Shown piece by piece: positions 9,815 to 25,107 of a stretch of 64,000 nucleotides of DNA. The position numbers and the translations under genes were made by a program. Under the pieces are notes generated by a model. That model had not been told where the DNA came from. It saw nothing but the letters and a program-made list of their open reading frames with translations, and searched no databases. Location: positions 124,001 to 188,000 of the forward strand of contig JACRHH010000037.1 in NCBI GenBank assembly GCA_016212095.1. The letters are read 5' to 3'. The stretch's first letter is position 1; each line of letters begins with the position of its first letter. This DNA comes from Nitrospirota bacterium (GTDB taxonomy: Bacteria > Nitrospirota > Thermodesulfovibrionia > SZUA-242).

Positions 9815-10180
9815 GTGGGATCGATTCTTATAGTAGAGGACTCCGCCACAACCAGGGCGATGATACGGGCGGCGCTTGAAGACCTCGAAGACTACGACAT
9901 TGTCGAGGCCGGATCGGGCTTCGAAGCCCTGCGCGTGCTGCCGTCAAGGAAATTCGACCTTGTTTTCACCGACATCAACATGCCCGACATCAACGGCCTT
10001 GAGTTGATAAATTTCGTCAAAAGCAATCCGACCTACAGGGAAATTCCGTTGATTATCGTCACCACGGAGCGAAGCGAGGAAGACCGCAAGCGCGGGATTG
10101 CGCTTGGCGCGTTCGACTATGTGACCAAGCCTTTCGACGCCGAGACACTTCTTGCTCTGGCAAGAAAGGCGCTCGGCTGA
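9815..10180 (+). CDS. CheY-like response regulator
   Basis: A 121-residue stand-alone receiver domain and the first gene of the chemosensory operon. Acidic residues are in ILIVEDS (Glu8, Asp9), the phospho-acceptor is Asp53 in FTDINMPDING, and the switch Thr and Lys are in IVTTE and VTKPF. It starts with GTG preceded by a strong AAGGGGGAG site. The stop overlaps the cheA ATG. It is likely phosphorylated by CheA. The operon has a second receiver at its 3' end, so the two may divide output and phosphate-sink roles; that is inference. Confidence 0.92.
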   Translation: MGSILIVEDSATTRAMIRAALEDLEDYDIVEAGSGFEALRVLPSRKFDLVFTDINMPDINGLELINFVKSNPTYREIPLIIVTTERSEEDRKRGIALGAFDYVTKPFDAETLLALARKALG

Positions 10181-12228
10181 TGGCCGACTCCCAAAAGGAG
10201 TTCGTCTCCGAGGCGGAAGACCTTCTGCGCGAAACCGAAGACCGTCTGCTAGACCTGCGCGAAAGCCTGGCCTCCGGCGGGAACCCGGATGTTCTGAACG
10301 CCGTGTTCCGGTCGATGCACACGCTGAAGGGACTGTCCGGGTTGTTCAGCCTCAAGGGAATATCCGGCCTCAGCCACGCGATGGAAACCCTGCTGGATGA
10401 GCTTCGCCTTGGCAAGCGGGAGCTTACGGATGAGACCATCGCATTTATTCTTCGCAATCTCGATCGTCTGAAAACGCTGGTTTCCGAGGTCTCCGGATGG
10501 GGCGCCGAGTCGAGCAGCGTTGACGACGCGCTTGAAGAAATCAAGCGCTTTCGCGAGGGCGGCGCGGCATCGGGCGCGGATGCCGGGAAAATACCGGGCG
10601 TGCCGGACGAAATCAGCCGCGTTCTTTCCGAGTACGAGGAACACAGGCTTCGGACGAACCTCAAGGAAGGCCGCGCGCTTGTTGTGGCCGGAAAGGATTT
10701 CGAGCTTGACACGTTCGAGCAGGATCTTAAAGCGATAACCGAGGGAATCGGCTCCATCGGCGAACTGATAGCCACGATGCCGAAGGCTTCGGAGACAAAG
10801 CCCGGCTGTCTGGGCTTCGATCTGGTGATCGGCCTGAAGGTTTCGCGCGAGGAGGCGGGCGACGCGCTGGAGGGCATGACAGTTCGCGAGCTTGTCGCGG
10901 CGAAAGGATCTGTTCGCGAGCTTGTCGAGGCGAAAAAAGCCGTGTCGTCGCCGGTTCAACCGGCGCAGGCCAGGAAAACCTCCGACGCCGAGGGCGGGCA
11001 GGATGCGGGCAAGCTAAAGAGCGGATCGAGCACCGTGCGGGTGGACATCGGCAAGCTCGACGCCATCTTGAACACGGTTGGCGAGCTTGTGCTTGCCAAG
11101 GGAGCCATAGGCAGGATAGGCGCGGATATCGCCGACACGTTCGGATTCCACGCCTACATGGTTGACTTTCAGCGCGTGGTGAAAATACTCGAAAAGCGTC
11201 TCTCCGAACTTCAGAACCAGATACTCGAAATCCGCATGGTTCCGGTCGGACAGATATTCTCGCGCCTGAACCGCGTTGTGCGGCGCTATACGCAGGACAG
11301 GGGCAAGGAGATTAACCTCGAACTCTACGGCGAGGAGACCGAAATCGACAAGCTGCTTGCCGAGGAGGTTATCGATCCGCTGATGCATCTGATCAGAAAC
11401 GCCATCGATCACGGCATCGAGCCTCAGGACAAGCGCATTGCGGCGGGAAAGCCTGAGCGAGGCCTTGTTGTGCTTCGGGCGTTTCCGCGCGGAAATCACG
11501 TGGTGTTCCAGATCACCGACGACGGCGGCGGAATACGGGCCGACAAGGTTTACGCCAAGGCGGTTGAAAAGGGGCTTATAACCGCCGGACAGGAACTGAA
11601 CAAGGACGACATCGTGAAGCTCATCTTCATGCCCGGTTTCAGCACCGCCGACAAGGTGAGCGAGACATCGGGCCGGGGCGTGGGCATGGATGTGGTGAAG
11701 GAGAAGGTGGCGTCGCTTGGCGGTTTCGTGGACATCGAAACCGAAGAGGGCAAGGGCTCCACGTTTTACGTCACCATTCCGATCACGCTTGCGATAATAA
11801 AGGCCATTCTCGTGTCGGTTGCCGGCGAGCTGATGGCGATTCCGCTTGCATCAACGTCGGAGACCATGCAGATAGAGACCAAAAAAATACAGCATGTCGA
11901 GGGCAAGGAGGTGCTTGAGCTTCGCGGCGAGATGCTTCCGCTTGTGAGGCTTGCCGACACGTTCCAGATTCCCGGACGGGAAGCCGCTCCAACAAGCTGT
12001 TTCGTGGTGGTGGTCGGTTTCGGCGGAAGAAGGATAGGAATGCTCGTGGACGATCTCGTGGGGCAGCAGGAGGTTGTGATCAAGTCGCTCGGCGCGCATC
12101 TTGAGGGCATTCGCGGAATTGCGGGAGCCGCCGAGGTTGGAAAACACAAGGTTGTTCTGGTGCTGGACGTGGAGGCGCTGATGGAGGAAGCCATGAGCAG
12201 GTTCCAGCGCCTGAAGGCCGGAGTGTAG
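10180..12228 (+). CDS. cheA: chemotaxis histidine kinase CheA
   Basis: Central kinase of the chemosensory array: it autophosphorylates and passes phosphate to CheY and CheB. The 682 residues hold an N-terminal Hpt domain with the phospho-acceptor His47 in SMHTLKG. A linker with no obvious standard P2 follows, then dimerisation helices (about 290-360), and a HATPase domain with N box NAIDHGIEP and G boxes DDGGGI and GRGVGMDVV. The C terminus is a CheW-like domain that couples to receptors. It overlaps the preceding regulator by one base and is followed 3 bases later by an ATPase gene. Confidence 0.97.
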   Translation: MADSQKEFVSEAEDLLRETEDRLLDLRESLASGGNPDVLNAVFRSMHTLKGLSGLFSLKGISGLSHAMETLLDELRLGKRELTDETIAFILRNLDRLKTLVSEVSGWGAESSSVDDALEEIKRFREGGAASGADAGKIPGVPDEISRVLSEYEEHRLRTNLKEGRALVVAGKDFELDTFEQDLKAITEGIGSIGELIATMPKASETKPGCLGFDLVIGLKVSREEAGDALEGMTVRELVAAKGSVRELVEAKKAVSSPVQPAQARKTSDAEGGQDAGKLKSGSSTVRVDIGKLDAILNTVGELVLAKGAIGRIGADIADTFGFHAYMVDFQRVVKILEKRLSELQNQILEIRMVPVGQIFSRLNRVVRRYTQDRGKEINLELYGEETEIDKLLAEEVIDPLMHLIRNAIDHGIEPQDKRIAAGKPERGLVVLRAFPRGNHVVFQITDDGGGIRADKVYAKAVEKGLITAGQELNKDDIVKLIFMPGFSTADKVSETSGRGVGMDVVKEKVASLGGFVDIETEEGKGSTFYVTIPITLAIIKAILVSVAGELMAIPLASTSETMQIETKKIQHVEGKEVLELRGEMLPLVRLADTFQIPGREAAPTSCFVVVVGFGGRRIGMLVDDLVGQQEVVIKSLGAHLEGIRGIAGAAEVGKHKVVLVLDVEALMEEAMSRFQRLKAGV

Positions 12229-12231
12229 CGG

Positions 12232-13074
12232 ATGTACGAGGCGTTCTACGGCGTTTCATGCAGGCCGTTTTCGAAGACGCCCGACCCGCGCTTTCTCTAC
12301 TTCGGCAGGGCGCACGAGGAGGCGATGGCCAGGCTGGAATACGCCGTTTCCGAGCGCGAACTGGTGGTTCTTACCGGCGAGATAGGCTGCGGCAAGACAA
12401 CGCTTTCGCGCGCCCTGATGGACAGCCTGCCGCCTGAAAAATTTGACGTGGTCACGGTGCTGAATCCGAGGCTTACGCCGCAGCAGTTTCTCCGCACCAT
12501 AGCGCGCGGGTTGGGAATTCCGGTGGATCAGTTCCAGAAGGACGATCTGCTCGACATGCTCTATATGCGGCTCTACGACAGGTTCAGCATGGGCAGAACG
12601 CCGGTTATCATTGTCGATGAGGCGCAGCTCATCCTTGGCCGGGGCATATTCGAGGAGATCCGGCTGCTTACGAATTTCCAGCTTGACGACACCAATCTGA
12701 TGAGCATCGTGCTTATCGGCCAGCCCAGCCTCAACGAGCGGCTAAAGCATTCCGACCAGCAGCCGTTAAGACAACGCATAGGGATGCGTTATCATCTGTG
12801 CCCGCTTTCATCGGGAGAGATAATACCGTATCTGGCGCACAGGCTTGCGGTTGCAGGGAGAGCCGAACCACTTTTTGAGCAGGCCGCCGCCGATGCGATA
12901 TACCGATATTCAGGAGGCGTGCCGAGGGTGATCAACAATCTTGCGTCGAACGCCATGCTGGAGGGCTTTATCAGGGAAGCGCGGACAATCGGCGCGGATA
13001 TTGTGGTGAACGTGGCGCGGGAGTTCGATCTTGTGGCTGACGCCGTGGAATCGCTGAAAGCGGTTAATACATGA
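12232..13074 (+). CDS. ExeA/GspA-type AAA ATPase
   Basis: A 280-residue AAA ATPase of the ExeA family, known for roles in type II secretion assembly, type IV pilus systems and transposition. The opening FYGVSCRPFSKTPDPRFLY is typical of this family. Walker A is GEIGCGKTT, Walker B is VIIVDEAQLI, and the sensor region is VLIGQPSL. It lacks the periplasmic peptidoglycan-binding part of full GspA, so it is a cytoplasmic ATPase. It lies between cheA and cheW (4-base overlap), so a role in building or placing the receptor array is possible, but this is inferred from position only. Confidence 0.88.
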   Translation: MYEAFYGVSCRPFSKTPDPRFLYFGRAHEEAMARLEYAVSERELVVLTGEIGCGKTTLSRALMDSLPPEKFDVVTVLNPRLTPQQFLRTIARGLGIPVDQFQKDDLLDMLYMRLYDRFSMGRTPVIIVDEAQLILGRGIFEEIRLLTNFQLDDTNLMSIVLIGQPSLNERLKHSDQQPLRQRIGMRYHLCPLSSGEIIPYLAHRLAVAGRAEPLFEQAAADAIYRYSGGVPRVINNLASNAMLEGFIREARTIGADIVVNVAREFDLVADAVESLKAVNT

Positions 13075-13862
13075 ATATCGCAAGGCTTAGACAGCAGATC
13101 AGGGCAGGCATCACGGCGGTTGCGCAGCAGCCTGCATGTGAGGTTCGCGAACCTCTGCAACCGGAACCGCAACCGGAACCGGCTTGGCAACAGGAATCGC
13201 CCGCGCGGCCTGAACCGCCAAAACATGAAAACGATTCCGCTATGGTTGCCGTGGCCCAACCTGCCGTGGGGGGCAAAGAACCGCCCCACCCACAGCAACA
13301 GGAACCGCCACCGCAACGCTGCGTTGACGATCACGAATGCAAGGGGGATCCGCCGTTCGCCCCTGCGGACGGACCGCAATACGATGACGACAACGACTAC
13401 GGCTTTGACAATGCCCAGTCGCTCAGGCCGGTTGACGAGATCGAGATCGTGGCCTTCAGGCTCGGCAACGAGGAGTACGCCGTGCGTATCATGGAGATGC
13501 AGGAAGTCCTCATGATGCACGAGGTCACGTGGGTTCCGCGCACGCCTTCATATTTAATGGGAATTACTTCGCTTCGGGGCAAGGTTATCCCCGTGATCGA
13601 TCTCAGGGAAAAGCTCAGGATTCCGGGGGGCAGGGGCGAGGATGCCCGGATACTGGTGCTCGGCTGCGGTGGCGAGCCTATCGGCGCGAGGGTTGACAGC
13701 ATAAGCGGGGTTATCAGGATTACCCAGGACGAGATCATGGCATCGCTCACAACGCTGAGCGAGGAGGAGTCCAGGTATATAGAGGGTGTTGTGCGCGTGA
13801 AGAACAGGTTCGTTTCGATCCTGAGCCTTGGCGAGATCATGAAAATCGAATTGCAGGGATAG
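13071..13862 (+). CDS. cheW: CheW with long Pro/Glu/Gln-rich N-terminal extension
   Basis: Adaptor that joins CheA to chemoreceptors. The 263-residue protein has an unusual first 120 residues, rich in Pro, Glu and Gln with tandem QPEPQPEP-type runs, and likely disordered. A normal CheW domain follows (IEIVAFRLGNEEYAVRI; GITSLRGKVIPVIDL; ILVLGCGG). Usual CheW proteins are about 150-180 residues, so the extension may act as a tether. It overlaps the ATPase gene by 4 bases and is followed 3 bases later by a chemoreceptor gene. Confidence 0.93.
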   Translation: MNIARLRQQIRAGITAVAQQPACEVREPLQPEPQPEPAWQQESPARPEPPKHENDSAMVAVAQPAVGGKEPPHPQQQEPPPQRCVDDHECKGDPPFAPADGPQYDDDNDYGFDNAQSLRPVDEIEIVAFRLGNEEYAVRIMEMQEVLMMHEVTWVPRTPSYLMGITSLRGKVIPVIDLREKLRIPGGRGEDARILVLGCGGEPIGARVDSISGVIRITQDEIMASLTTLSEEESRYIEGVVRVKNRFVSILSLGEIMKIELQG

Positions 13863-13865
13863 GTT

Positions 13866-16724
13866 ATGTTCACAATATTCAGGGAGAAGCTGGAAGTGAA
13901 GGTGCTCGCGCTGATCGTGGGCCTGATGCTCACCGGAGCTCTTATCATTGGCACAACGGTGATAGTGCTTCAGCGGGGCGGACTTTCGCGCATATCCCTG
14001 CGCCATGCCGGAACCCTTGCCGAGGTGGTGTCGAGAAGCCTTGAGACAACGATGGTTCACGGCAGGGCAGACATCACAAGCGACATGGCCCAGCGGCTTC
14101 ATGCCGTCGAGGGCGTTCAGGCCATAAGCGTGTATAACAAGGACGGACGTTCCGCCTTCAACAAAAACGCATCCGTTACCGAGGCCGAAACGGCGCGCCG
14201 TCTTTCGATAGAGAAAAAACCGGTGCATTTCGAGCGCGGCGATCATGTTATCTTCTACAACCCCCTGCCCAACGGCCCTCGCTGCACCGGATGTCACAGC
14301 ATCAACGATGACATGCTCGGCATCGTGAAGGTCGAGATCGACATGAGCGAGATCTACGGCAAGTTCACAAGCTACATCTGGTTCGCCATCTTCGGCTCCT
14401 TCTGCGGCATCACCGGCCTGTCCGTGGCGCTTCTTCTTGTGCTGAGGCGCGTGGTGCTGAAGCCGATCAAGCGGGTTGTGGATGCCGCCGGACATCTGGC
14501 CGACGGCGATCTGAGCTTCCATGTGGAGGTAAGGTCGTCGGACGAGATCGGGAGGATGGCGGATGACCTGAAGGATTCCATCCACAAGGTTGCGATTATC
14601 ATCGGGCGCATCAAGGATGTGGCCTCGCGGGTGTACCGGGTTACCGACACGGTGAAGGAGGAGTCGAGGCTGGTGCTTGAAGCCACGGTCATGGAGTCGG
14701 AGGCGATCAACAACATATCGAGCTCAATCGAGGAGTCGAACACCGCGATGGCCAGAATTGTCGAAAACATTGCCAGCCTTTCGTCTTCAGCCGGAGAGAC
14801 TGCGGCAGCGGCAGTCGAGATGGCGTCTTCAACCGAGCAGGTGGCGCGGAAAACCGCCGAGGTGCATGACGCTGTCGATTCCACCTCAACGTCGATCACG
14901 CAGATGACATCGGCCATGCGCGAGGTGGCCGCCGCAGCCGAGGAGCTTTCGATGTCTGCCGAGGAAACCCTGGCGGCCATGGAGCAGATCGGCGCGTCGA
15001 TCAAGGAAGTTGAGGGCCGGGCAAAGGATTCGGCGCGGCATTCCACGCGTGTTGCCGATCTGGCGCAGGGCGAGGGCATGGCCACCCTGGCCAAGACCAT
15101 CGACGGAATGATGCTTATTCGCGAAAGCGTTCAGTCCACGTCCGACTACATAAACCAGCTCGGCAGCCGCTCCGAGGACATCGGCGAGATTCTCACCGTC
15201 ATCGACGACATCACAGACCAGACCACGCTTCTTGCGCTGAACGCCGCCATTCTGGCGGCTCAGGCGGGCGAACACGGGCGCGGATTTTCGGTTGTGGCAA
15301 ACCAGATAAAGAGTCTTGCCGAGCGCACCGCCAATTCCACGCAGGAGATCAGCTCGCTCATCGAGACGGTGCAGAGCGAGGTGCGGGGCGCGGTGTCGCA
15401 CATGGAATCGGCCATCAAGCGGGTGGATGACGGCCTCACGCTTTCCAGCGACGCCAAGCAGGCGCTTGAGCGGATCGTCGATTCGTCCGGCGTTTCGGCC
15501 CAGATGGCCTTTTCGATAGAGCGCGCCACGGAAGAGCAGGCCAAGGGCGTTCGCGTGGTCAACACCGCAATGGACAGCGTGCGCGGACGCATAGACCAGA
15601 TAGTGCGCGCCACGCAGGAGCAGAGCAAGGGCGCGGGGCTGATAATCGATTCCGCCGAGATCATGCGCGACCTCACCATTCATGTCGAGCGGGCGACCGC
15701 GGAGCAGTCTCAAAGCAGCAGGCGGATTTCGGATGCGGTGGAATCGATTTCCGAGCGCATTCAGCATATCTCCCATGCTGTGCGCGAACAGCATCTTGGA
15801 ACCGACCAGATCATGAAATCGATCGAGCAGATAAAGCACATTCCGGAAAAGAACCGTTCGCTGGCCTTCAGCATGAACAAGGGGCTTCGCGACGTAATGC
15901 GCGACAACGAGCTTCTTGAAACCGAGGTTGCGCGGTTCCGGACGGCTTATTCCGGCAAGGACGTTGTGTACATGGGCGTTGTGCCGCTTGAGTCTCCGGC
16001 GGAGATGTACAAGAAATTCATGCCGTTTGCCGATTACCTGAGCGAAAAGCTGGGCAAGAGGGTTGAGCTCCGGATTCCGGTGGATTTCAACACCGCCATA
16101 TCGGATCTCGGATCGGGCACGACGCAGCTATGCTTCATGACTCCCTCAACGTACATAGAGGCTCACAACAGGCATCAGGTGAAGGTTCTCGCCAAGGCGC
16201 TCAGAAAGGGCAAGCCGTATCATCACACGGTGATAATCGTGCGCGCCGACAGCGGAATAAACGAACTGCGCGAGATAAAGGGCCGGACGTTCGCATTCGG
16301 CGACATTCATTCCACTTCGAGCCATCTTGTGCCGCGCGCCATGCTCAAGCAGGCAGGCGTTGATCTGGCGTCGCTGCGCTATTACGAATATCTCGGCCAT
16401 CACGACGATGTGGCGCAAGCGGTGCTCAAGGGCGACTTCGACGCGGGCGGCGTGATGGAGTCTGTCGCGCTCAGATACGAATCGAAGGGGATCAAGCTGC
16501 TCAAGTACTCGCCGGAGGTTCCGGAGTTCAATCTGGCCACGGCGCGCGATCTGTCGTCCGACGAGCGCGAGACACTGCGGAAGGCGGTAACACGTCTGAA
16601 CGCGTCCAATGTTCAGGATCACAAGGTGCTGGCATCTATAAACGAGGACTATACCGGATTCACCGACGCGACGGACGCGGACTTCGATCCGATCCGGCAG
16701 ATAATGCTCGATCTGGGCGTCTGA
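13866..16724 (+). CDS. chemoreceptor with periplasmic haem motif and C-terminal PhnD-like domain
   Basis: A 952-residue receptor. Order: membrane helix 1 (about 12-36), periplasmic sensor (37-165), membrane helix 2 (about 168-193), HAMP, methyl-accepting signalling domain, then a PhnD/phosphonate-type binding-protein domain (about 690-950). The periplasmic part contains one c-type haem site, CTGCH at 140-144, so haem-based redox or gas sensing is likely. The signalling tip reads NAAILAAQAGEHGRGF, a common variant. No third membrane helix precedes the PhnD-like domain (YMGVVPLESPAEMYKKF), so it should be cytoplasmic, which is odd for a fold usually found in the periplasm. It may sense a cytoplasmic ligand. 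No CheR-docking pentapeptide ends the protein. Confidence 0.9.
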   Translation: MFTIFREKLEVKVLALIVGLMLTGALIIGTTVIVLQRGGLSRISLRHAGTLAEVVSRSLETTMVHGRADITSDMAQRLHAVEGVQAISVYNKDGRSAFNKNASVTEAETARRLSIEKKPVHFERGDHVIFYNPLPNGPRCTGCHSINDDMLGIVKVEIDMSEIYGKFTSYIWFAIFGSFCGITGLSVALLLVLRRVVLKPIKRVVDAAGHLADGDLSFHVEVRSSDEIGRMADDLKDSIHKVAIIIGRIKDVASRVYRVTDTVKEESRLVLEATVMESEAINNISSSIEESNTAMARIVENIASLSSSAGETAAAAVEMASSTEQVARKTAEVHDAVDSTSTSITQMTSAMREVAAAAEELSMSAEETLAAMEQIGASIKEVEGRAKDSARHSTRVADLAQGEGMATLAKTIDGMMLIRESVQSTSDYINQLGSRSEDIGEILTVIDDITDQTTLLALNAAILAAQAGEHGRGFSVVANQIKSLAERTANSTQEISSLIETVQSEVRGAVSHMESAIKRVDDGLTLSSDAKQALERIVDSSGVSAQMAFSIERATEEQAKGVRVVNTAMDSVRGRIDQIVRATQEQSKGAGLIIDSAEIMRDLTIHVERATAEQSQSSRRISDAVESISERIQHISHAVREQHLGTDQIMKSIEQIKHIPEKNRSLAFSMNKGLRDVMRDNELLETEVARFRTAYSGKDVVYMGVVPLESPAEMYKKFMPFADYLSEKLGKRVELRIPVDFNTAISDLGSGTTQLCFMTPSTYIEAHNRHQVKVLAKALRKGKPYHHTVIIVRADSGINELREIKGRTFAFGDIHSTSSHLVPRAMLKQAGVDLASLRYYEYLGHHDDVAQAVLKGDFDAGGVMESVALRYESKGIKLLKYSPEVPEFNLATARDLSSDERETLRKAVTRLNASNVQDHKVLASINEDYTGFTDATDADFDPIRQIMLDLGV

Positions 16725-16754: not shown

Positions 16755-17564
16755 ATGAAAAAACTGCTGATTTCATTATTGCTCACAGCCTGTTTCTCCA
16801 ATGCCGCGTTTGCCGGCGACAAGATCACTGTTGCCGGATCCGGCGGAATGATTCCGCTTGCAACCAGGCTCGCCGCGGCGTTCATGGAGAAATATCCGGG
16901 CGAGATTGTCGAGGTTAACCAGACTTCCATAGAATCCACCGGCGGCATCAGAAGCGCGGAGGCCGGAAGGATAGACATCGGCATGTCGGCCCGCCCGCTT
17001 GAAAACAAGGAGATGTCGTTAGGGCTGAAACAGACCGAAATAGCCCGCGCTGCCCTGATCATTGGCGTACACCGGAATGTTCCGATAACCGGATTGTCGG
17101 AGGAGGAGGTCTGCCGGATATACAAGGGCGAGATAACAACCTGGGCGAAGGTCGGCGGGGAAAAGGCTCCCATACTTGTTTTTACACGTCCGGACGCCGA
17201 TTCCACGAAGAAAACCATCCGCGAACATATGCCATGCTTTGCGAACCTTGTCGAGACGCAGTCGGCGGTGATCATGCCCAAGTCGGCAGACATGATCAAG
17301 GCGGTCATGACCAGGCCGGACAGCATCGGCATTCTTGACTCGGTCGGCGTTCTCGATTCGAAGGGCGCTATAAAGCCCCTGAAAATTGATGGAGTCGCGG
17401 CGAACGAAGAAACCATAGCTTCGGGCCGGTATGGCATCGTGAAGCGTTTTTTCTTCGTGACAAAATCATCGACATCGGCGGCGGTCAATAAATTCATTAG
17501 CTTTATCAAGTCAAAGGAGGGAGCGGCGATAATAAAGGCGAGCCACGCCATGCCGATTCCATGA
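16755..17564 (+). CDS. PstS-like phosphate-type substrate-binding protein
   Basis: A 269-residue secreted binding protein with a signal peptide cut after NAAFA. It starts ITVAGSGGMIPL, like the PstS family phosphate loop, and has further ligand-loop segments SIESTGG and SARPLENKE. The ribosome site AGGAGG is well placed. No pstC, pstA, pstB or phoU gene is near. It lies between two chemoreceptor genes, 30 bases after one and one base before the other. It may therefore present phosphate or another oxyanion to a receptor rather than to a transporter. This role is inferred from context; the ligand is not certain. Confidence 0.88.
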   Translation: MKKLLISLLLTACFSNAAFAGDKITVAGSGGMIPLATRLAAAFMEKYPGEIVEVNQTSIESTGGIRSAEAGRIDIGMSARPLENKEMSLGLKQTEIARAALIIGVHRNVPITGLSEEEVCRIYKGEITTWAKVGGEKAPILVFTRPDADSTKKTIREHMPCFANLVETQSAVIMPKSADMIKAVMTRPDSIGILDSVGVLDSKGAIKPLKIDGVAANEETIASGRYGIVKRFFFVTKSSTSAAVNKFISFIKSKEGAAIIKASHAMPIP

Positions 17565-17565
17565 A

Positions 17566-19614
17566 ATGAGATTACTTGAGATATTCAGGTCGAAGTCCCT
17601 TGCCGTAAGGTTCGGGCTTATCATCTTTGCGATCCTTGCCGCCGCGCAGATAGTGGTCGGGTCGTGGTATGTCATTCGTGAGCGATTGCATCTGGAGGAT
17701 TCCTTCAACAAGCGTTTCGATCACCTTGGGGCGCTTCTTGTCGGAGTGAGCAGGCAGCCGCTGTTCAGTTTCGACTATACGCCGCTCATGCCGTTTCTGG
17801 ATGAAATGGGCAAGGACGACGAGATCGTGGCCGTGCGCGTGTACGACTCGAACATGAATCTCGTCGCGCAGAAGGTCAAGGCGGGCGGCGAGCCGGACGG
17901 AACCGTCAGGGACGGCGGCATGTTTTTCTTCCCCGGCAGGATTGCAAGACAGTTCGACGTGTTGATGGGCGGCCAGAACCTGGGCAAGGTGGAGATAGTG
18001 TTCAGCGCCGCCGACGCAAACAGGGAACTGCTCACGCTGCTCATTATCACTCCGATGTTTCTTGGGGTGCTTCTGCTGGTGGTAATTTTCACCGTATACA
18101 AATTCTTTGCCAAGTACGTGGCCGCGCCGGTCAGGAGCCTTAACAACGGCATCGAAAAGGTTGGCGGAAAGGATCTTACTGTCTATTTCGAAACCGACCG
18201 CCAGGACGAACTGGGCGAGATGATTCGCGGTTTCAACTATCTTGTCGAGGCGCTCAGAACCTACATGGCGCGCTTGAGCAGCACGGCTGTTGATGTGACG
18301 GCGGCCATCAGGCAGATGGAGGAGATATTCCAGAAAGTAGGCGAGGGAACGAACAGCCAGTTCGAGTCCGTCGAGCGGATGCGCGAGCGCATTTCCCGCA
18401 TGGACTTGTCGCAGAAGGATGTCTTTGAGAGCGCCGAGCGCGCCGCGTCGCTGTTTCAGGAGAACCTTTCGTCACAGCTCGAAATCCGGGCGTCGGTTAC
18501 CGAGATCGTTTCATCCACCGATGATCTGTTCAGGTCAACCGATGTCGCCTATTCCGCCGTTTCGGACATGTCGTCGTCATCGCGCCAGATTGCCGACAGC
18601 GCCGACGAGCTTGCAAAGACCATAGAGGAAACATCCGCGTCGGTCGAGCAGATAACCTCATCCATCAAGCTGGTGGAGGATCATGCGCGCCAGTCGGCGC
18701 AGGTTGCCGCCGAGGTCACCATGACCGCCAACAGCACCGGCATGGAGGCCGTGCGCGCCGCGCGCGACGGCATGATGAACATCCAGCAGGAGGTCATGTC
18801 GTCGTCCGAGATCATCCAGCGGCTTGGAACCCGTTCCAAGGACATCGAAAAGATTCTCAAGGTCATCAAGGATGTTACCGAGCAGACCAATCTGCTGAGC
18901 CTCAACGCGGCCATTCTCGCGGCTCAGGCGGGAGAGTACGGCAAGGGCTTCGGCGTTGTGGCCGACGAGATAGGAAGCCTTGCCGAGCGCACCGCCATGT
19001 CAACGCTCGAAATATCGAACATTGTCAACACCATCCAGAAGGAGATATCCGAGGCTGTGGACAGCACCAGCCGCGGCATTACCCGCGTTGACGAGGGCGT
19101 GTCGCTTGTTGGCCGCGTGGAGGATGCGCTCCGGCAGACGCTCTCCAATTCCGAGAAGGCCTCCCGGATGGCCTATTCCATCGAGAAGGCCACGGTGGAG
19201 CAGGGAAACAGCATTCGTCACATATCGAAAGTGGTTGACAGGGTGCAGCAGATGACGAAGCATGTGACGCTTGCCCTCAAGCAGCAGGGCAACGCGTTGA
19301 ACGGTCTTGTGAGCAGCGCCGGAACAGTGCGCGACGTGACCGAGGTGGTCAAGAAGGGCATGGACGAGCAGAACACCGGAATCCAGCTCATTTCGAGAAA
19401 CCTTGAACTCACCAACGACATGATGTCGCAGGTTTCGGAAGCCACGTTCGCCCAGAAGAAGGAGACGGAGGAGCTGATTCAGGATATCGTGAGCATACAT
19501 GCGATGGGAAAGCGCACGCTGGAGATCATCGACGAGATGAAGGAAACGCTTACAACGCTTTATTCCGAAACCGAAAACATGCAGTCCGAGATGAAGGGGT
19601 TCAGGCTTAAATGA
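17566..19614 (+). CDS. methyl-accepting chemoreceptor
   Basis: 682 residues: membrane helix 1 (about 14-35), a periplasmic sensor of about 120 residues (36-157), membrane helix 2 (about 158-182), HAMP (to about 235) and a long methyl-accepting signalling domain. The conserved tip is EQTNLLSLNAAILAAQ followed by AGEYGKGF. The small periplasmic domain has no motif I recognise; it may bind its ligand directly or dock the PstS-like protein encoded one base upstream. No haem motif is present, unlike the first receptor. The stop overlaps the next cheW by 4 bases. Confidence 0.94.
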   Translation: MRLLEIFRSKSLAVRFGLIIFAILAAAQIVVGSWYVIRERLHLEDSFNKRFDHLGALLVGVSRQPLFSFDYTPLMPFLDEMGKDDEIVAVRVYDSNMNLVAQKVKAGGEPDGTVRDGGMFFFPGRIARQFDVLMGGQNLGKVEIVFSAADANRELLTLLIITPMFLGVLLLVVIFTVYKFFAKYVAAPVRSLNNGIEKVGGKDLTVYFETDRQDELGEMIRGFNYLVEALRTYMARLSSTAVDVTAAIRQMEEIFQKVGEGTNSQFESVERMRERISRMDLSQKDVFESAERAASLFQENLSSQLEIRASVTEIVSSTDDLFRSTDVAYSAVSDMSSSSRQIADSADELAKTIEETSASVEQITSSIKLVEDHARQSAQVAAEVTMTANSTGMEAVRAARDGMMNIQQEVMSSSEIIQRLGTRSKDIEKILKVIKDVTEQTNLLSLNAAILAAQAGEYGKGFGVVADEIGSLAERTAMSTLEISNIVNTIQKEISEAVDSTSRGITRVDEGVSLVGRVEDALRQTLSNSEKASRMAYSIEKATVEQGNSIRHISKVVDRVQQMTKHVTLALKQQGNALNGLVSSAGTVRDVTEVVKKGMDEQNTGIQLISRNLELTNDMMSQVSEATFAQKKETEELIQDIVSIHAMGKRTLEIIDEMKETLTTLYSETENMQSEMKGFRLK

Positions 19615-20081
19615 CCGAATCGCCGCAACAGTATGCCCTGTTTGTCATGGGCGGAAAGGAATTCGCCATCGAGATCGGCCTCGTGGTCGAGATACTTCAG
19701 CGGCAGGAGGTCATGCCGGTTCCGAACATGCCGGATTTCCTGGTGGGCATAATAGACTTGAGGGGCCGGGTGATACCTGTCATCGATCTGAGAAAGCGCT
19801 TCCACGTGACGCCTGCCCAGAAGGCGAAGGATCGGATAATAATCGTCCGGAAGGGGCGGGAACGCCTCGGCATGGTAGTGGACAATGTGACGGAGATTGT
19901 TCCGCTTGAGTCGAAGGGAATCACGGCTCCGCCCTCCATATTCAGGGGGCCGGGGTCGGAATATCTGAAAAACATAGGAAAAACCGCCGGGAGGATGATT
20001 GTGATTCTGGATGTGAACCGGCTTCTGAGCCGCGAGGAAATGTTCATGCTGAACGAGGCGATTAACTGTGGCGCGCACTGA
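19611..20081 (+). CDS. cheW: CheW adaptor, short form
   Basis: A 156-residue CheW of standard length (FVMGGKEFAIEIGLVVEIL; GIIDLRGRVIPVIDLRKRF; MVVDNVTEIV). It is the second CheW of the operon and lacks the Pro/Glu-rich extension of the first, so the two may serve different receptors. It follows the second chemoreceptor with a 4-base overlap and overlaps the HEAT-repeat gene by 14 bases. Confidence 0.94.
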   Translation: MTESPQQYALFVMGGKEFAIEIGLVVEILQRQEVMPVPNMPDFLVGIIDLRGRVIPVIDLRKRFHVTPAQKAKDRIIIVRKGRERLGMVVDNVTEIVPLESKGITAPPSIFRGPGSEYLKNIGKTAGRMIVILDVNRLLSREEMFMLNEAINCGAH

Positions 20082-22086
20082 CGACATTCTTCTGCTTGCC
20101 GCGTCGGACAATCCCGACGAACGGCGCGAGGCCGCGCTTGCGATGTCGGAATGCGGAACCCGGTCATGCATCGAAACACTGCTCGATCTTCTCTGCGATC
20201 CGGACTGGCGGGTGCGAAAGACCGCCGTGGAGACCGTTCTGCAGACGGCGGACGAGTCGATCATTCCCGGCCTCGTGGAGATCATGGGCCTTCAGGATAA
20301 CGCCGGAGCCAGGAACTCGGCCATCGAGGCGCTTACCCGCATGGGCAGACGCGCGACTTCGGCCCTCATGGAAGTTTTCCGTGCCACGGATCACGACCGC
20401 AGGAAATTCATAATCGACATACTGGGCGAGGTTGGAGACAAAACATGCGTTCCGCTGATGGCCGAGGCCCTCGACGATCCGGACGAAAACGTGAGCGCAT
20501 CGGCGGTCGAGCATCTTGGCGCGATGGGAGACAGCTCCGTGGTTCCGCGCCTTGTGGGCATACTTCGTTCCGGTGTTTTCTGGAAGGCATATCCGGCGGC
20601 TGACGCCCTTGGACGCATCGGCGACCCGTCGGCTGTTGGGCCTCTCGTGGACGCGATCGAGATAAAATCGCTTCGCGAACCTGCCATCAGGGCTCTTGGA
20701 CGCATCGGCGACAGCAGTGCGATTCCGGCCATTGTTCCACATGTGGCGGCGAAGTCGAAGGCTGTTCAGGCCGAAGCCCTGAAAGCGTTGACGGGAATAT
20801 ATCGCAAAACCGCGAACGAGGCGCTTATTGCAAGCATGTTGAATCTGGGGCTTGGCGAAAGCGCTTATGACCAGTTGCTGAAGATAGCAAAAGGCGGACA
20901 TGATGAGATCAAGGAGCCCGCGCTGGTGCTTCTTGGGCTCCTGGAGGATGACCGTGCGATCGGCCCTCTTCTGGAGATGGCCTCAACCCAGGATTCCGAC
21001 GAGGATGCAAGACGCGCCCTCGTCAGCATCGGCAGGGCAAAGCCGTCGGCGCTTGCCGATTCTTTCCGGATCACGCCCGACAGCTACAAGCGCCGTGTCC
21101 TCTGCATTGTGGCCGGAATGGTGGGCAACCCGCTTCTTGTTCCGCCGCTAATCGACGCATTGGGCGATCCGGACGGGCATGTGCGCGGCAACGCGGCGGA
21201 AGCGCTGGGTAGAACCGGCGCCGTGGAGGCGATAAGCGGAATCGAGAGCCTGATGAGCGACTGCTATCAGGATGTTCAGGAAACCGCGATCCGCGCGCTT
21301 GCCCGTCTGCGCCACGGGCTTTCGATTGAGCGGCTGACGGGTTTCCTGCACGACCGCAATCCGGTGCTGAGGCGCAATTACGCTTTCCTTATCGGTCTTG
21401 TCAAGGCTGCCAGCGCCGTGGAGGCGCTTTCATTCGCGATGAAGGATGAAGAGGTGCCTGTCCGCATGGCCGCAGTTGAAGCTCTGGCGATGATCGGTGG
21501 GGAGGAGGCCGCGGCGTCGCTTCCGGCTGCCTTGACCGATGAGGCTTCCGACATTCGCAGGGCGGCTGTTCTTGCAATGGGAAGAATCGGCAGGCCCGAT
21601 CTTCTTGAGCGTCTGGCGCCGCTTTTTGTCGATCAGGACGACTGGGTGCGGGCTGCGGTGGCCGAGGCGATAGCCGGCCAATCTGGCCCTGCCGCCGGCT
21701 CGGCGCTTATCAGGCTGTTTGACGATGCTAGCGGACTTGTGCGGGTTACGGCAATCGAGATGTTCGGAATGGCGGGGCATTCAGATCTATGGCCCGCGCT
21801 TCTTCGCGCGATGAAGGACGATGATCCGGAGATACGGCGGGCCGCCGTTACCGCGCTTTCGCTTGCCGCGCCTCCGCAAGAGGCCGCAAGCGCACTGCTG
21901 CCGAGTCTTCATGACCGCGACTGGGCTGTCCGCAAGGCCGCTGTCGAGGCGATGAGAAGCGTTGGAATGGCGCTTGGGGCCGCCAGTAATGCGCCTGTTC
22001 GCGAGGAATTGAGACGGCTTGTTGACGGCGAGAACGATCCCGCTGTTCTTGAAGCCATCCGGAGCGCGCTTGATGCTTCTGTCTGA
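20068..22086 (+). CDS. HEAT-repeat protein in chemosensory operon
   Basis: 672 residues made almost wholly of about 31-residue HEAT/PBS-lyase-type repeats (for example AVEHLGAMGDSSVVPRL and AIRALGRIGDSSAIPAI), giving an extended helical solenoid. Such proteins bind partners; no catalytic motif is visible. The GTG start at 20068 lies inside the cheW end, and the 3' end overlaps cheR by 14 bases, so it is embedded in the operon. HEAT-repeat proteins do occur in chemosensory clusters of delta-proteobacteria-like groups. A scaffold role in the array is inferred. Confidence 0.9.
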   Translation: MARTDDILLLAASDNPDERREAALAMSECGTRSCIETLLDLLCDPDWRVRKTAVETVLQTADESIIPGLVEIMGLQDNAGARNSAIEALTRMGRRATSALMEVFRATDHDRRKFIIDILGEVGDKTCVPLMAEALDDPDENVSASAVEHLGAMGDSSVVPRLVGILRSGVFWKAYPAADALGRIGDPSAVGPLVDAIEIKSLREPAIRALGRIGDSSAIPAIVPHVAAKSKAVQAEALKALTGIYRKTANEALIASMLNLGLGESAYDQLLKIAKGGHDEIKEPALVLLGLLEDDRAIGPLLEMASTQDSDEDARRALVSIGRAKPSALADSFRITPDSYKRRVLCIVAGMVGNPLLVPPLIDALGDPDGHVRGNAAEALGRTGAVEAISGIESLMSDCYQDVQETAIRALARLRHGLSIERLTGFLHDRNPVLRRNYAFLIGLVKAASAVEALSFAMKDEEVPVRMAAVEALAMIGGEEAAASLPAALTDEASDIRRAAVLAMGRIGRPDLLERLAPLFVDQDDWVRAAVAEAIAGQSGPAAGSALIRLFDDASGLVRVTAIEMFGMAGHSDLWPALLRAMKDDDPEIRRAAVTALSLAAPPQEAASALLPSLHDRDWAVRKAAVEAMRSVGMALGAASNAPVREELRRLVDGENDPAVLEAIRSALDASV

Positions 22087-22945
22087 TCCGTCAATAAAAC
22101 TGTCGGACGATGAATTCCGCCTGCTGCGGGATTACATCCACGAGTATTGCGGGATATTTTTCGACGATGCCTCGAAATACCTGCTCGAAAGACGTCTCGG
22201 CAACAGGCTGCGGCAGCTTCACATCGCTTCGTTCAAGGACTACTATCGCTTCCTCCGCTATGACAGGCGGCGTGACGACGAGCTTGTTGCGGCGATGGAC
22301 GTCCTGACGATCAACGAGACGTATTTCTTCCGCGAGCAACGCCAGCTCGACGCCTTCAGCAAGGAGATTCTGCCGGAGTTGAAAGAGCGCAATGTGCTCT
22401 CGCGGAAGCTTCGCATATGGTCCGCCGGATGCTCGACCGGCGAGGAGCCGTACACGCTGGCGATGCTCATAATGGAAGACGGCGGCTTTGCCGGATGGGA
22501 CGTTTCCATATTCGGAAGCGACATCAACCAGAGGGTGCTTCAAAACGCCAGAAGGGGCGTCTATCGCCAGAACTCCTTCCGGACTATCGACAAGTATTTC
22601 CTTGGGAGGTATTTCGAGCCGGACGAGGGCGAGACCTACAGGATTTCCGACAGGGTGAAGCGTTACGTGAATTTCGGCAACCTGAATCTGGTGGAGGCCG
22701 CAAGGCTTCATTTTCTGGATACGATGGACATAATTTTCTGCCGCAACGTGAGGATCTATTTCGACGAGAGCGCCAAGAAAAAAGTGGTGCAGAATTTCTA
22801 CGACCGCCTGTGCGACGGCGGCTATCTTTTGCTTGGACATGCAGAATCGCTCATAAACATATCCACCGCGTTCAGGCTGAAGCATCTTCAGAACGATATG
22901 GTCTACCAGAAAAATCCGCCTCCTTCATCAGGCGGAACCAGATGA
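22073..22945 (+). CDS. cheR: chemoreceptor glutamate methyltransferase CheR
   Basis: Methylates receptor glutamates using S-adenosylmethionine, for adaptation. From the ATG at 22073 it is 290 residues: an N-terminal helical domain (LSDDEFRLLRDYIHEYCGIF) and a SAM-binding domain with LRIWSAGCSTGEEPYTLA and DIIFCRNVRIYF. A longer frame begins upstream inside the HEAT gene, but the extension does not match the family. It overlaps the HEAT gene by 14 bases and cheB by 4 bases. No TPR extension is present. Confidence 0.96.
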   Translation: MLLSDPSIKLSDDEFRLLRDYIHEYCGIFFDDASKYLLERRLGNRLRQLHIASFKDYYRFLRYDRRRDDELVAAMDVLTINETYFFREQRQLDAFSKEILPELKERNVLSRKLRIWSAGCSTGEEPYTLAMLIMEDGGFAGWDVSIFGSDINQRVLQNARRGVYRQNSFRTIDKYFLGRYFEPDEGETYRISDRVKRYVNFGNLNLVEAARLHFLDTMDIIFCRNVRIYFDESAKKKVVQNFYDRLCDGGYLLLGHAESLINISTAFRLKHLQNDMVYQKNPPPSSGGTR

Positions 22946-24078
22946 TCATGAAACCATCCGACTCGGCAAAGCGGACAAGAATTCTGGTGGTGGACGACTC
23001 GGCAACCAGCAGGCAGGCTGTTCGCCGTATTGTTGACTCGGTTTCGAGGTTCGAAGTGATCGGAACAGCCACGAACGGCAAGGAGGCCATAACACGCCTC
23101 ATGCGCCTGAAGCCCGACATCGTGCTGCTCGACATAGAGATGCCAGAAATGGATGGCTTCGCGTTTCTGCGCTGGATGCTTGCCAACGAGCCCGTCCCGG
23201 TGATTGTGGTAAGTTCGCGGACGGACAGCGCCTCCGTTTTCCGGTGCCTCGACCTTGGCGCTGTCGATTTCGTGGCTAAGCCGCTGAGCGATTCAACCGA
23301 ACACCAGGGCGCGATGGCGCGCGACCTTATTATGAAGCTCGATGCCATGACAGAAATCGGCATGGAGAAGGTGAAGCGCCGCATAGCCCTGACCGCCGAA
23401 ACCGCAAGGGTCAGGTTTCCTGGGCCGTCCCTGTCATCGACCGCTGTCGAGGCGGTGGCCATCGGCGCGTCAACAGGCGGCCCGTCGGCGCTTCAGATGA
23501 TTCTGTCGGCTTTTCCGGCAGACTTCGCGCCTGCCGTTTTGGTAAGCCAGCACATGCCGCAGGGATTCACCCGGTCGTTTGCCGACAGGCTGAACAAAAT
23601 CTGCGCGCTTCGGATCGCGGAGGCCTGTGACGGCGATCTTGTTGAACCCGGCAGGGTGTATATCGCTCCCGGCGACAGGAATATCACGATGTCGAGACTT
23701 GGCGACACGGTTATCCTGAAACTGCTTGCGCCGCCTTCAAACGATCTTTATGTTCCGTCCGTTGACGTGATGATGGCGCATGTGGCTCGCGCCTACGGCA
23801 GGCGCGCCGTCGGTGTTCTGCTTACCGGAATGGGCAACGACGGCAGCGCCGGGATGCTGGAAATCATGAACGAAGGCGGTTATACTATTGCCGAATCCGA
23901 GGAAACTGCCGTGGTCTTCGGAATGCCACGCGAAGCCATCGCCGCGGGAGCCGTCAAGAAGGTGCTTCCGCTTGAGGAGATTCCGAAGGAGGTCATGCGG
24001 TACTGCAGCGCGTCGGCGATGAGGAAGAATTCGGGTGAATCGGTATCCAGCCGGTTTCATGAAAACGGTTACGGTTAA
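22942..24078 (+). CDS. cheB: chemotaxis methylesterase CheB
   Basis: Removes methyl groups from receptors when phosphorylated by CheA. From the ATG at 22942 it has 378 residues; a second ATG at 22948 is an alternative, and a much longer upstream frame overlapping cheR is not real. The receiver domain has Asp18, Asp19 and phospho-acceptor Asp64 (LLDIEMPEMDG). The esterase domain has the triad in GASTGGPSALQ (Ser), SQHMPQGFT (His) and GMGNDGSAGM (Asp). Overlap with cheR gives a matched methylation pair. Confidence 0.96.
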   Translation: MIMKPSDSAKRTRILVVDDSATSRQAVRRIVDSVSRFEVIGTATNGKEAITRLMRLKPDIVLLDIEMPEMDGFAFLRWMLANEPVPVIVVSSRTDSASVFRCLDLGAVDFVAKPLSDSTEHQGAMARDLIMKLDAMTEIGMEKVKRRIALTAETARVRFPGPSLSSTAVEAVAIGASTGGPSALQMILSAFPADFAPAVLVSQHMPQGFTRSFADRLNKICALRIAEACDGDLVEPGRVYIAPGDRNITMSRLGDTVILKLLAPPSNDLYVPSVDVMMAHVARAYGRRAVGVLLTGMGNDGSAGMLEIMNEGGYTIAESEETAVVFGMPREAIAAGAVKKVLPLEEIPKEVMRYCSASAMRKNSGESVSSRFHENGYG

Positions 24079-24081
24079 ATT

Positions 24082-24450
24082 ATGGCTAATATACTGATTG
24101 TTGAAGATTCACCCACCATGCGGCAGCTTATAATGTTCGCCCTGAAGAGGCTCCAGGGCGTGCAGGTTGCCGAAGCGTCCGACGGCGTGGAGGCTATGCG
24201 AAAGCTTGCCGAGCAGTCGTACGACGTTGTGCTTGCCGACATCAACATGCCGGTCATGGACGGACTCAAGCTTGTCGGCCACATGCGGAGCAATCCGCGC
24301 TACAAACATATTCCGGTTGTCATAATCACGACCGAGGGGGCCGAGGAAGACAAGCAGCGCGCGCTGTCGCTGGGCGCGAACGCCTATCTGATGAAGCCGA
24401 TCCAGACGCAGAAGCTGCTGGAAATAGTCAGCCATTACGTCAAAAGCTAG
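24082..24450 (+). CDS. cheY: CheY-like response regulator
   Basis: A 122-residue single receiver domain, the last gene of the chemosensory operon. Acidic pocket in ILIVEDS, phospho-acceptor Asp53 (LADINMPVMDG), switch Thr in IITTEGAEED and Lys in LMKPIQ. It lies 3 bases after cheB and is a likely output of CheA. The cluster has no CheZ, CheC or CheX, so signal decay may depend on intrinsic dephosphorylation or on the second receiver at 9815. Confidence 0.94.
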   Translation: MANILIVEDSPTMRQLIMFALKRLQGVQVAEASDGVEAMRKLAEQSYDVVLADINMPVMDGLKLVGHMRSNPRYKHIPVVIITTEGAEEDKQRALSLGANAYLMKPIQTQKLLEIVSHYVKS

Positions 24451-24501: not shown

Positions 24502-25107
24502 ATGGGAATTCTTTCATCATCATCGAGCTATACGCGTTTCCGCCTGTCGGGCGAGATGCCCGACAGTTACGAGGCGCTGTTCCGGCTCCAGATCGGGCGA
24601 AACGCGTTCGACCATTCGGAAGGCGCGTCGGACAAGGAGCGCATCAGTGGATGGGTCGATCCGGCCCGCCCGTTCGACGATTCCCTCGACATGGATTCAG
24701 TGTTCGTGGGCGATTACATTGTGCTTTCGATGCGCGTTGACAAGCGGACAGTGCCGCCGCGCCTGCTGAAGCATCATGCGATGCAGGAGGAGGCGAGGGC
24801 AAGGGCCGAAAGCGGACGCGAACGCCTGTCGCGGCGCGAGCGGCTGGAGTTGAAGGAACTGGTGAAAAGCAGGCTTCTGCTTCGCGCGCTTCCAACCATA
24901 AACACCTACGACATGGTCTGGGACATCCACAAGGAAACGATCTATTTTTCGTCAACCGCCGAAAAGATTGGCGATGAATTCAGCGGCCTGTTCGAGGAGA
25001 CGTTCGGCATTCCGCTGTCCCGCCGTTACACATACGACATATTCGCTGAAATGTTCGGCGGCGATCCGTCAGCGCTTGAGCGCATTGCGCCAGCCCTTCT
25101 TGCATAG
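24502..25107 (+). CDS. RdgC-like recombination-associated protein, short form
   Basis: 201 residues resembling the N-terminal two thirds of RdgC, a ring-shaped DNA-binding protein that affects RecA. The match runs from a Trp-containing GWVDP segment, through IVLSMRVDKRTVPPRLLKHH and a charged helix, to LLLRALPTINTYDMVWD and the short strand after it. E. coli RdgC is about 300 residues, so this is a shortened form. The two genes that follow at once (8-base gap, then a 4-base overlap) may supply the rest or act with it. Assignment is from remembered family pattern, so moderate confidence. Confidence 0.7.
   Translation: MGILSSSSSYTRFRLSGEMPDSYEALFRLQIGRNAFDHSEGASDKERISGWVDPARPFDDSLDMDSVFVGDYIVLSMRVDKRTVPPRLLKHHAMQEEARARAESGRERLSRRERLELKELVKSRLLLRALPTINTYDMVWDIHKETIYFSSTAEKIGDEFSGLFEETFGIPLSRRYTYDIFAEMFGGDPSALERIAPALLA

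Follow-up and report, generated by a model that had tools for sequence, protein, structure and literature searches.

A Nitrospirota chemoreceptor with a predicted periplasmic haem-c sensor and a cytoplasmic PhnD/PtxB-like clamp

The window analysed here, a stretch of 64,000 nucleotides from a Nitrospirota bacterium, contains a chemosensory operon with two chemoreceptor genes, which we refer to as MCP1 and MCP2:

9815..13862, + strand: upstream part of the operon, encoding CheY, CheA, an ExeA-like AAA ATPase and CheW (Pfam; synteny)
13866..16724, + strand: chemoreceptor gene MCP1 (open reading frame with an ATG start, 952 aa; Pfam domains)
16755..17564, + strand: PstS-like secreted anion-binding protein, between MCP1 and MCP2 (PF12849; signal-peptide-like N terminus MKKLLISLLLTACFSNAAFA)
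17566..19614, + strand: sister chemoreceptor MCP2, 682 aa, with signalling arms as long as those of MCP1 and without its C-terminal clamp (Pfam; tip position)
19611..24450, + strand: downstream part of the operon, encoding CheW, a HEAT-repeat protein, CheR, CheB and CheY (Pfam; synteny)

Among the best 80 of 371 candidates from a species-level genome collection, the match spans the linker between the signalling domain and the clamp on 66 contigs, nearly all of them labelled Nitrospirota, Nitrospirae, Thermodesulfovibrionia or -ales. Chemosensory neighbours were recognisable on 64 of these 66, and within the limits set by contig ends the order is CheY, CheA, ExeA-like AAA ATPase, CheW, MCP1, usually MCP2, CheW, HEAT-repeat protein, CheR, CheB and CheY. 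The ExeA-like ATPase (12232-13074) and the HEAT-repeat protein (20068-22086) are fixed members of the operon throughout the class, and neither is a standard chemotaxis component. The PstS-like gene is also present in a few relatives (L056, L092, L107, L116, L133 and, twice, L147); its TIGR02136 match lies under the cut-off, and its product may feed ligand to the periplasmic domain of MCP2. Positions 24502-25104, 3′ of the chemotaxis genes, encode a protein of 201 aa that matches RdgC weakly and in part.

Pfam places four domains along MCP1, in the order Mcp40H-20_sensor (residues 54-155), HAMP (193-236), MCPsignal (421-572; PF00015, E 3.4e-45) and Phosphonate-bd (703-940). With its MCP signalling domain and hairpin tip, its HAMP domain and two transmembrane helices, MCP1 is a methyl-accepting chemotaxis protein, and because CheA, CheW, CheR and CheB are encoded in the same operon, reversible methylation and control of CheA by MCP1 are likely. 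A frameshift or an assembly join as the origin of this domain order was ruled out by the occurrence of the same protein in many independent genomes. The features from the N terminus to the end of the signalling domain are:

13914..13970, + strand: TM1, residues 17-35 (hydropathy 2.43)
13971..14381, + strand: haem-c sensor domain, residues 36-172, single-Cache/PAS-like fold (PF21563; PDB profile; AlphaFold2; Foldseek)
14052..14054, + strand: Met63, putative distal haem ligand, aligned with Met60 of GSU0582/GSU0935 (chain position 26 plus an offset of 34 in the alignment)
14283..14297, + strand: CTGCH, haem-c attachment motif of the CXXCH type, residues 140-144, between TM1 and TM2
14388..14444, + strand: TM2, residues 175-193 (hydropathy 2.25)
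14442..14573, + strand: HAMP domain, residues 193-236 (Pfam PF00672, 40.3 bits)
14601..15944, + strand: signalling coiled coil, residues 246-693 (MCPsignal 421-572; tip position; a single proline between residues 240 and 700)

By hydropathy, residues 17-35 and 175-193 are the only two strongly hydrophobic stretches of MCP1. No third membrane helix was found after residue 193, the best later 19-residue segment (0.99 on the Kyte-Doolittle scale) being the receptor tip, and full-length relatives have exactly two transmembrane segments. The positively charged stretch LRRVVLKPIKR just after TM2 is consistent with HAMP, and with it the C terminus, lying in the cytoplasm. The initial annotation had described a chemoreceptor that joins a periplasmic haem c motif, a signalling domain and a cytoplasmic PhnD-like domain with no third membrane helix; the open reading frame, the Pfam matches and the hydropathy profile agree with that description, including the lack of a third helix before residue 690, and domain searches assigned the outer end to PF21563 and the inner end to the whole profile of PF12974.

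Judged by sequence, the periplasmic domain is a member of the PF21563 haem-c family of Geobacter sulfurreducens GSU0582 and GSU0935, a family already known. MCP1 matches PF21563 with 27.2 bits for the full protein and 30.3 bits for the domain (curated cut-off 27), and all 19 relatives tested also match it at a threshold of E 0.01; eight of the 19 additionally match PF11845, the Tll0287 haem family, to which MCP1 itself shows no match. A PDB search with residues 35-171 and E values up to 10 returned two sequences only, GSU0582 (3b47, E 0.0067) and GSU0935 (3b42, E 0.25), and a profile built from 19 relatives placed the same two well ahead of all others (E 1e-13 for 3b47 and 1e-12 for 3b42). In the PDB, Foldseek likewise ranks 3b42 and 3b47 first for the AlphaFold2 model of the domain (mean pLDDT 87.5), with TM-scores of only ~0.5 and a large rmsd, as expected if the crystals are of domain-swapped dimers, as published. 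The histidine of CTGCH aligns with His143 of GSU0582. Among 56 full-length receptors, MCP1 included, CXXCH is invariant and the Met63 position is kept in 53; the 56 were selected for a length of 940-970 aa, so that all of them have the periplasmic domain, and within this set the invariance rules out a chance occurrence of CTGCH. The family match, the two PDB relatives and the invariant motif thus agree on the periplasmic haem-c type sensor that had been proposed. Genes for cytochrome c assembly were found in the genome, and a covalent haem c on this domain is a well-supported prediction from homology.

For the sensor domains of GSU0582 and GSU0935, a redox-linked spin change with release of Met60 occurs at -156 and -251 mV, and both domains bind CO as well as NO, the latter whether oxidized or reduced (PMC8396549). 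In a preprint of 2026 the fold is reassigned to the haem-carrying single Cache domains (sCache_heme), and a signalling-associated sCache_heme domain is reported to bind NO and release it slowly, the properties of an NO sensor (PMC12889525). The proposal of redox sensing outside the cell therefore keeps an experimental grounding in the haem family, but NO sensing is a second function with such grounding.

The tip of the MCP1 hairpin, AAQAGE, lies at residues 464-469 (tip sequence NAAILAAQAGEHGRGFSVVA), with ~224 residues between the end of HAMP and the tip and ~224 between the tip and the end of the returning helix. MCP2, whose tip is at 452-457, ends at tip+225, which is the point where the linker to the clamp of MCP1 begins. 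These matching arm lengths indicate that the clamp was appended after a complete signalling hairpin. The linker itself, at about 691-698, comprises a few low-confidence residues in the AlphaFold2 model, and the arm length implies that the clamp should sit near HAMP and the membrane. Its features are:

15972..16685, + strand: PhnD/PtxB-like type II periplasmic-binding-protein domain, cytoplasmic, residues 703-940 (PF12974; PtxB; AlphaFold2; Foldseek)
15987..15989, + strand: Leu708, in place of PtxB D22 of the phosphite cap (Leu, Ile or Val in 66/66)
16311..16319, + strand: S816-T817-S818, predicted oxyanion-binding STS motif, aligned with S130/T131/S132 of Te_PtxB
16401..16403, + strand: His846, aligned with PtxB H160, which contacts a ligand oxygen (kept in 63/66)
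16527..16529, + strand: Phe888, in place of PtxB Y208 of the phosphite cap (Phe in 62/66)

PF12974 (Phosphonate-bd) matches residues 703-940 over its entire 242 positions with 212.5 bits (E 7.6e-63), and the closest solved relatives are PtxB (5o2j, E 2.4e-36 by sequence) and HtxB. The AlphaFold2 model of the clamp (pLDDT 88.7) matches 5o2j in Foldseek with an E value of 4e-29 and a TM-score of 0.85 on the target. Together with the lack of a transmembrane segment after residue 193, this bears out the earlier assignment of a substrate-binding-protein fold at a cytoplasmic C terminus. The cleft residues are among the most conserved of the clamp, and mean identity to MCP1 is 53% for the clamp, 67% for the tip and 27% for the periplasmic domain.

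We mapped the ligand-contacting residues onto MCP1 from the published PtxB sites (PMC5700983); the residue counts out of 66, here and above, refer to receptors. The STS motif is kept (S816 in 65/66, T817 and S818 each in 60/66). The PtxB ligand tyrosines Y55 and Y100 are replaced by Phe741 (Phe in 58/66) and His786 (His or Gln in 60/66), and with these tyrosines lost the site may be weak or altered. In PtxB, the Y208F substitution raises the dissociation constant for phosphite from 0.17 to 295 uM, about 1,700-fold, and abolishes phosphate binding (PMC5700983, Table 3). The clamp is likely of an anion-binding type. A phosphite-specific PtxB identity fails on Phe888, Leu708, Phe741 and His786 at the positions of Y208, D22, Y55 and Y100. 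Identity as the PhnD of PhnCDE phosphonate transport also fails: the clamp is cytoplasmic, and no PhnE permease scores above the family cut-off in the genome; the NCBIfam PhnD equivalog gives the clamp 142 bits, under its cut-off of 261. Phosphonate, phosphite or phosphate had been suggested as ligand, and that suggestion is weakened: the retained STS and His residues still favour it, but the positions behind the phosphite specificity of PtxB hold conserved hydrophobic residues, PhnE is missing at the family cut-off, and the replacement of the Tyr/Asp cap by conserved Phe/Leu leaves specificity for phosphite or phosphonate unsupported.

Each end of MCP1 has known counterparts. Like GSU0582 and GSU0935 (3b47, 3b42; PF21563), MCP1 combines a periplasmic haem-c PAS/Cache-like sensor with two transmembrane helices, HAMP and a signalling domain, and shares the CXXCH and the position of the distal methionine; according to a review, HAMP is followed in the Geobacter proteins by an MCP domain only, whereas MCP1 adds the clamp. 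The preprint places both Geobacter proteins in the sCache_heme or DUF3365-Tll0287 family, in which CXXCH is near-invariant, and in the portion available a clamp partner such as that of MCP1 is not among the features described (PMC12889525). With PtxB (5o2j, 5jvb) and the PhnD family, including ArrX and AioX, the clamp has in common the fold and the STS...H oxyanion residues, but those proteins are secreted and free-standing, whereas the clamp forms the cytoplasmic end of a receptor and carries Phe/Leu in place of the Tyr/Asp cap. Where substrate-binding-protein folds take part in chemotaxis, they usually sense nutrients outside the cell. Chemoreceptors that end in a soluble cytoplasmic sensor after the signalling hairpin exist, for example with CZB or hemerythrin domains, but these are of another domain type than the two-lobed clamp of MCP1. 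A search of the open-licence literature found no published description of a receptor with both a haem sensor and a clamp. What is new is a binding-protein clamp that is fused on the inner side of the membrane, with a haem sensor at the other end of the receptor, and that many Nitrospirota genera have retained.

The complete architecture was found in 20 of 60 relatives, a count that includes three without the haem domain, and about 78 of 200 sampled Thermodesulfovibrionia (Nitrospirota) genomes hold a reading frame of at least 790 aa whose match extends into the clamp. The initial annotation had called such a C-terminal domain rare, which stands for bacteria at large (in the scan of the best 80 of 371 candidates, a scope that leaves room for its occurrence in other phyla) but not within its own class, where it is common and conserved. 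Four relatives (L070, L091, L125 and L132) have no haem domain but retain the clamp, and one (L069) has the haem domain without the clamp. That either end can be missing argues that each works as an independent sensor, and the relatives without a haem domain show that the receptor can function without haem input.

L063, L064, L134 and L135, from Nitrospirota and unplaced bacteria, resemble MCP1 in that a PF12974 clamp follows their signalling domain at the C terminus and no transmembrane segment comes later, but they differ in having an N-terminal membrane hairpin instead of the haem domain, a canonical tip, an STGS motif with Gly, and a location outside the MCP1 operon. L064 and L134 represent a second, clamp-only receptor type with canonical tip and N-terminal membrane hairpin. 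A tree puts the clamps of the MCP1 type and of this second type into separate clusters; its deep forks are unsupported and its branches long, and it does not separate a single fusion from repeated ones.

Our preferred reading, to which we give a probability of about 0.68, is that MCP1 is a dual-input receptor that would integrate a periplasmic redox or NO signal with a cytoplasmic anion signal; in this reading we infer haem attachment, ligand binding, the direction of signalling and the motility output. The covalent haem c would report redox state or NO through a change of coordination at Met63, and this signal would pass through TM2 and HAMP into the coiled coil. In the cytoplasm the clamp, tethered by its short linker where the returning helix ends and thus adjoining HAMP and the membrane, would close on a small intracellular anion or a phospho- or oxo-compound, probably not phosphite, and its closure would bias the same kinase-control hairpin. 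The integrated output would be read by CheA and CheW of the operon, with adaptation by CheR and CheB; because the genome encodes flagellin and PilT, it could be swimming or pilus movement.

On the cytoplasmic side, a clamp that specifically senses intracellular phosphate, phosphonate or phosphite, with the receptor coupling phosphorus status to redox, would account for PtxB and HtxB as nearest solved relatives, for the conserved STS...H residues and for the PstS-like gene next to MCP1 and in a few relatives; we regard it as unlikely, given that the Tyr208/Asp22 cap is Phe/Leu in nearly all relatives, that PtxB is crippled by Y208F (PMC5700983), and that the genome lacks a PhnE permease above cut-off. 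It is somewhat less likely again that the clamp has given up small-molecule binding and become a docking or assembly module, for instance for CheR/CheB or the HEAT-repeat protein. Folds of this kind can be reused as protein-binding modules, the HEAT-repeat protein is an unusual and conserved operon member, and the hairpin end that carries the clamp is the adaptation-proximal one, but high conservation of the cleft residues speaks against docking, as does the loss of the STS loop in free-standing gammaproteobacterial relatives, which indicates that the fold does not need STS. An accidental or decaying fusion without function, to which rarity outside the phylum (again among the best 80 of 371 candidates) might point, is very improbable and already contradicted by conservation: the occurrence in about 78 of the 200 genomes sampled from the class, the 53% mean identity and the conserved pocket residues.

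On the periplasmic side, the haem domain may be primarily a sensor of NO rather than of redox state, a possibility that we take seriously while leaning away from it. NO uptake by GSU0582/0935 in both redox states (PMC8396549) and the slow NO release described in the preprint (PMC12889525) favour it, but the same Geobacter domains release Met60 in a redox-linked manner (PMC8396549), and the Met position is kept in the MCP1 type. An NO sensor would fit the dual-input reading and narrow only its outer input. Should both ends signal, a single receptor would weigh redox state or NO outside the cell against an anion inside it, and this would be a testable form of metabolism-dependent taxis in hard-to-culture environmental bacteria. 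More tentatively, and at slightly less than even odds, this may be a class-wide operon receptor with cross-membrane logic, in which the outer haem reports electron-acceptor or NO conditions, the inner clamp, whose type otherwise works outside cells, reports how much of a specific oxyanion or phospho-metabolite the cytoplasm holds, and movement follows their match.

Several other clamp relatives deserve mention. The second clamp receptors of L064 (8415-10379) and L134 (4378-6327) carry STGS at the anion site where the MCP1 type has STSS. The gammaproteobacterial relatives (L136-L148) have a shorter stretch, ALLQRAVV, in place of the STS loop, which suggests a different ligand, and with that loop gone they gave no clue to the ligand of the clamp. 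L032, L033, L035 and L036 encode tandem double PhnD-like proteins of ~570 aa that end in CGMGCHPKIRL or a similar sequence, and this C-terminal CXXCH might be a haem site.
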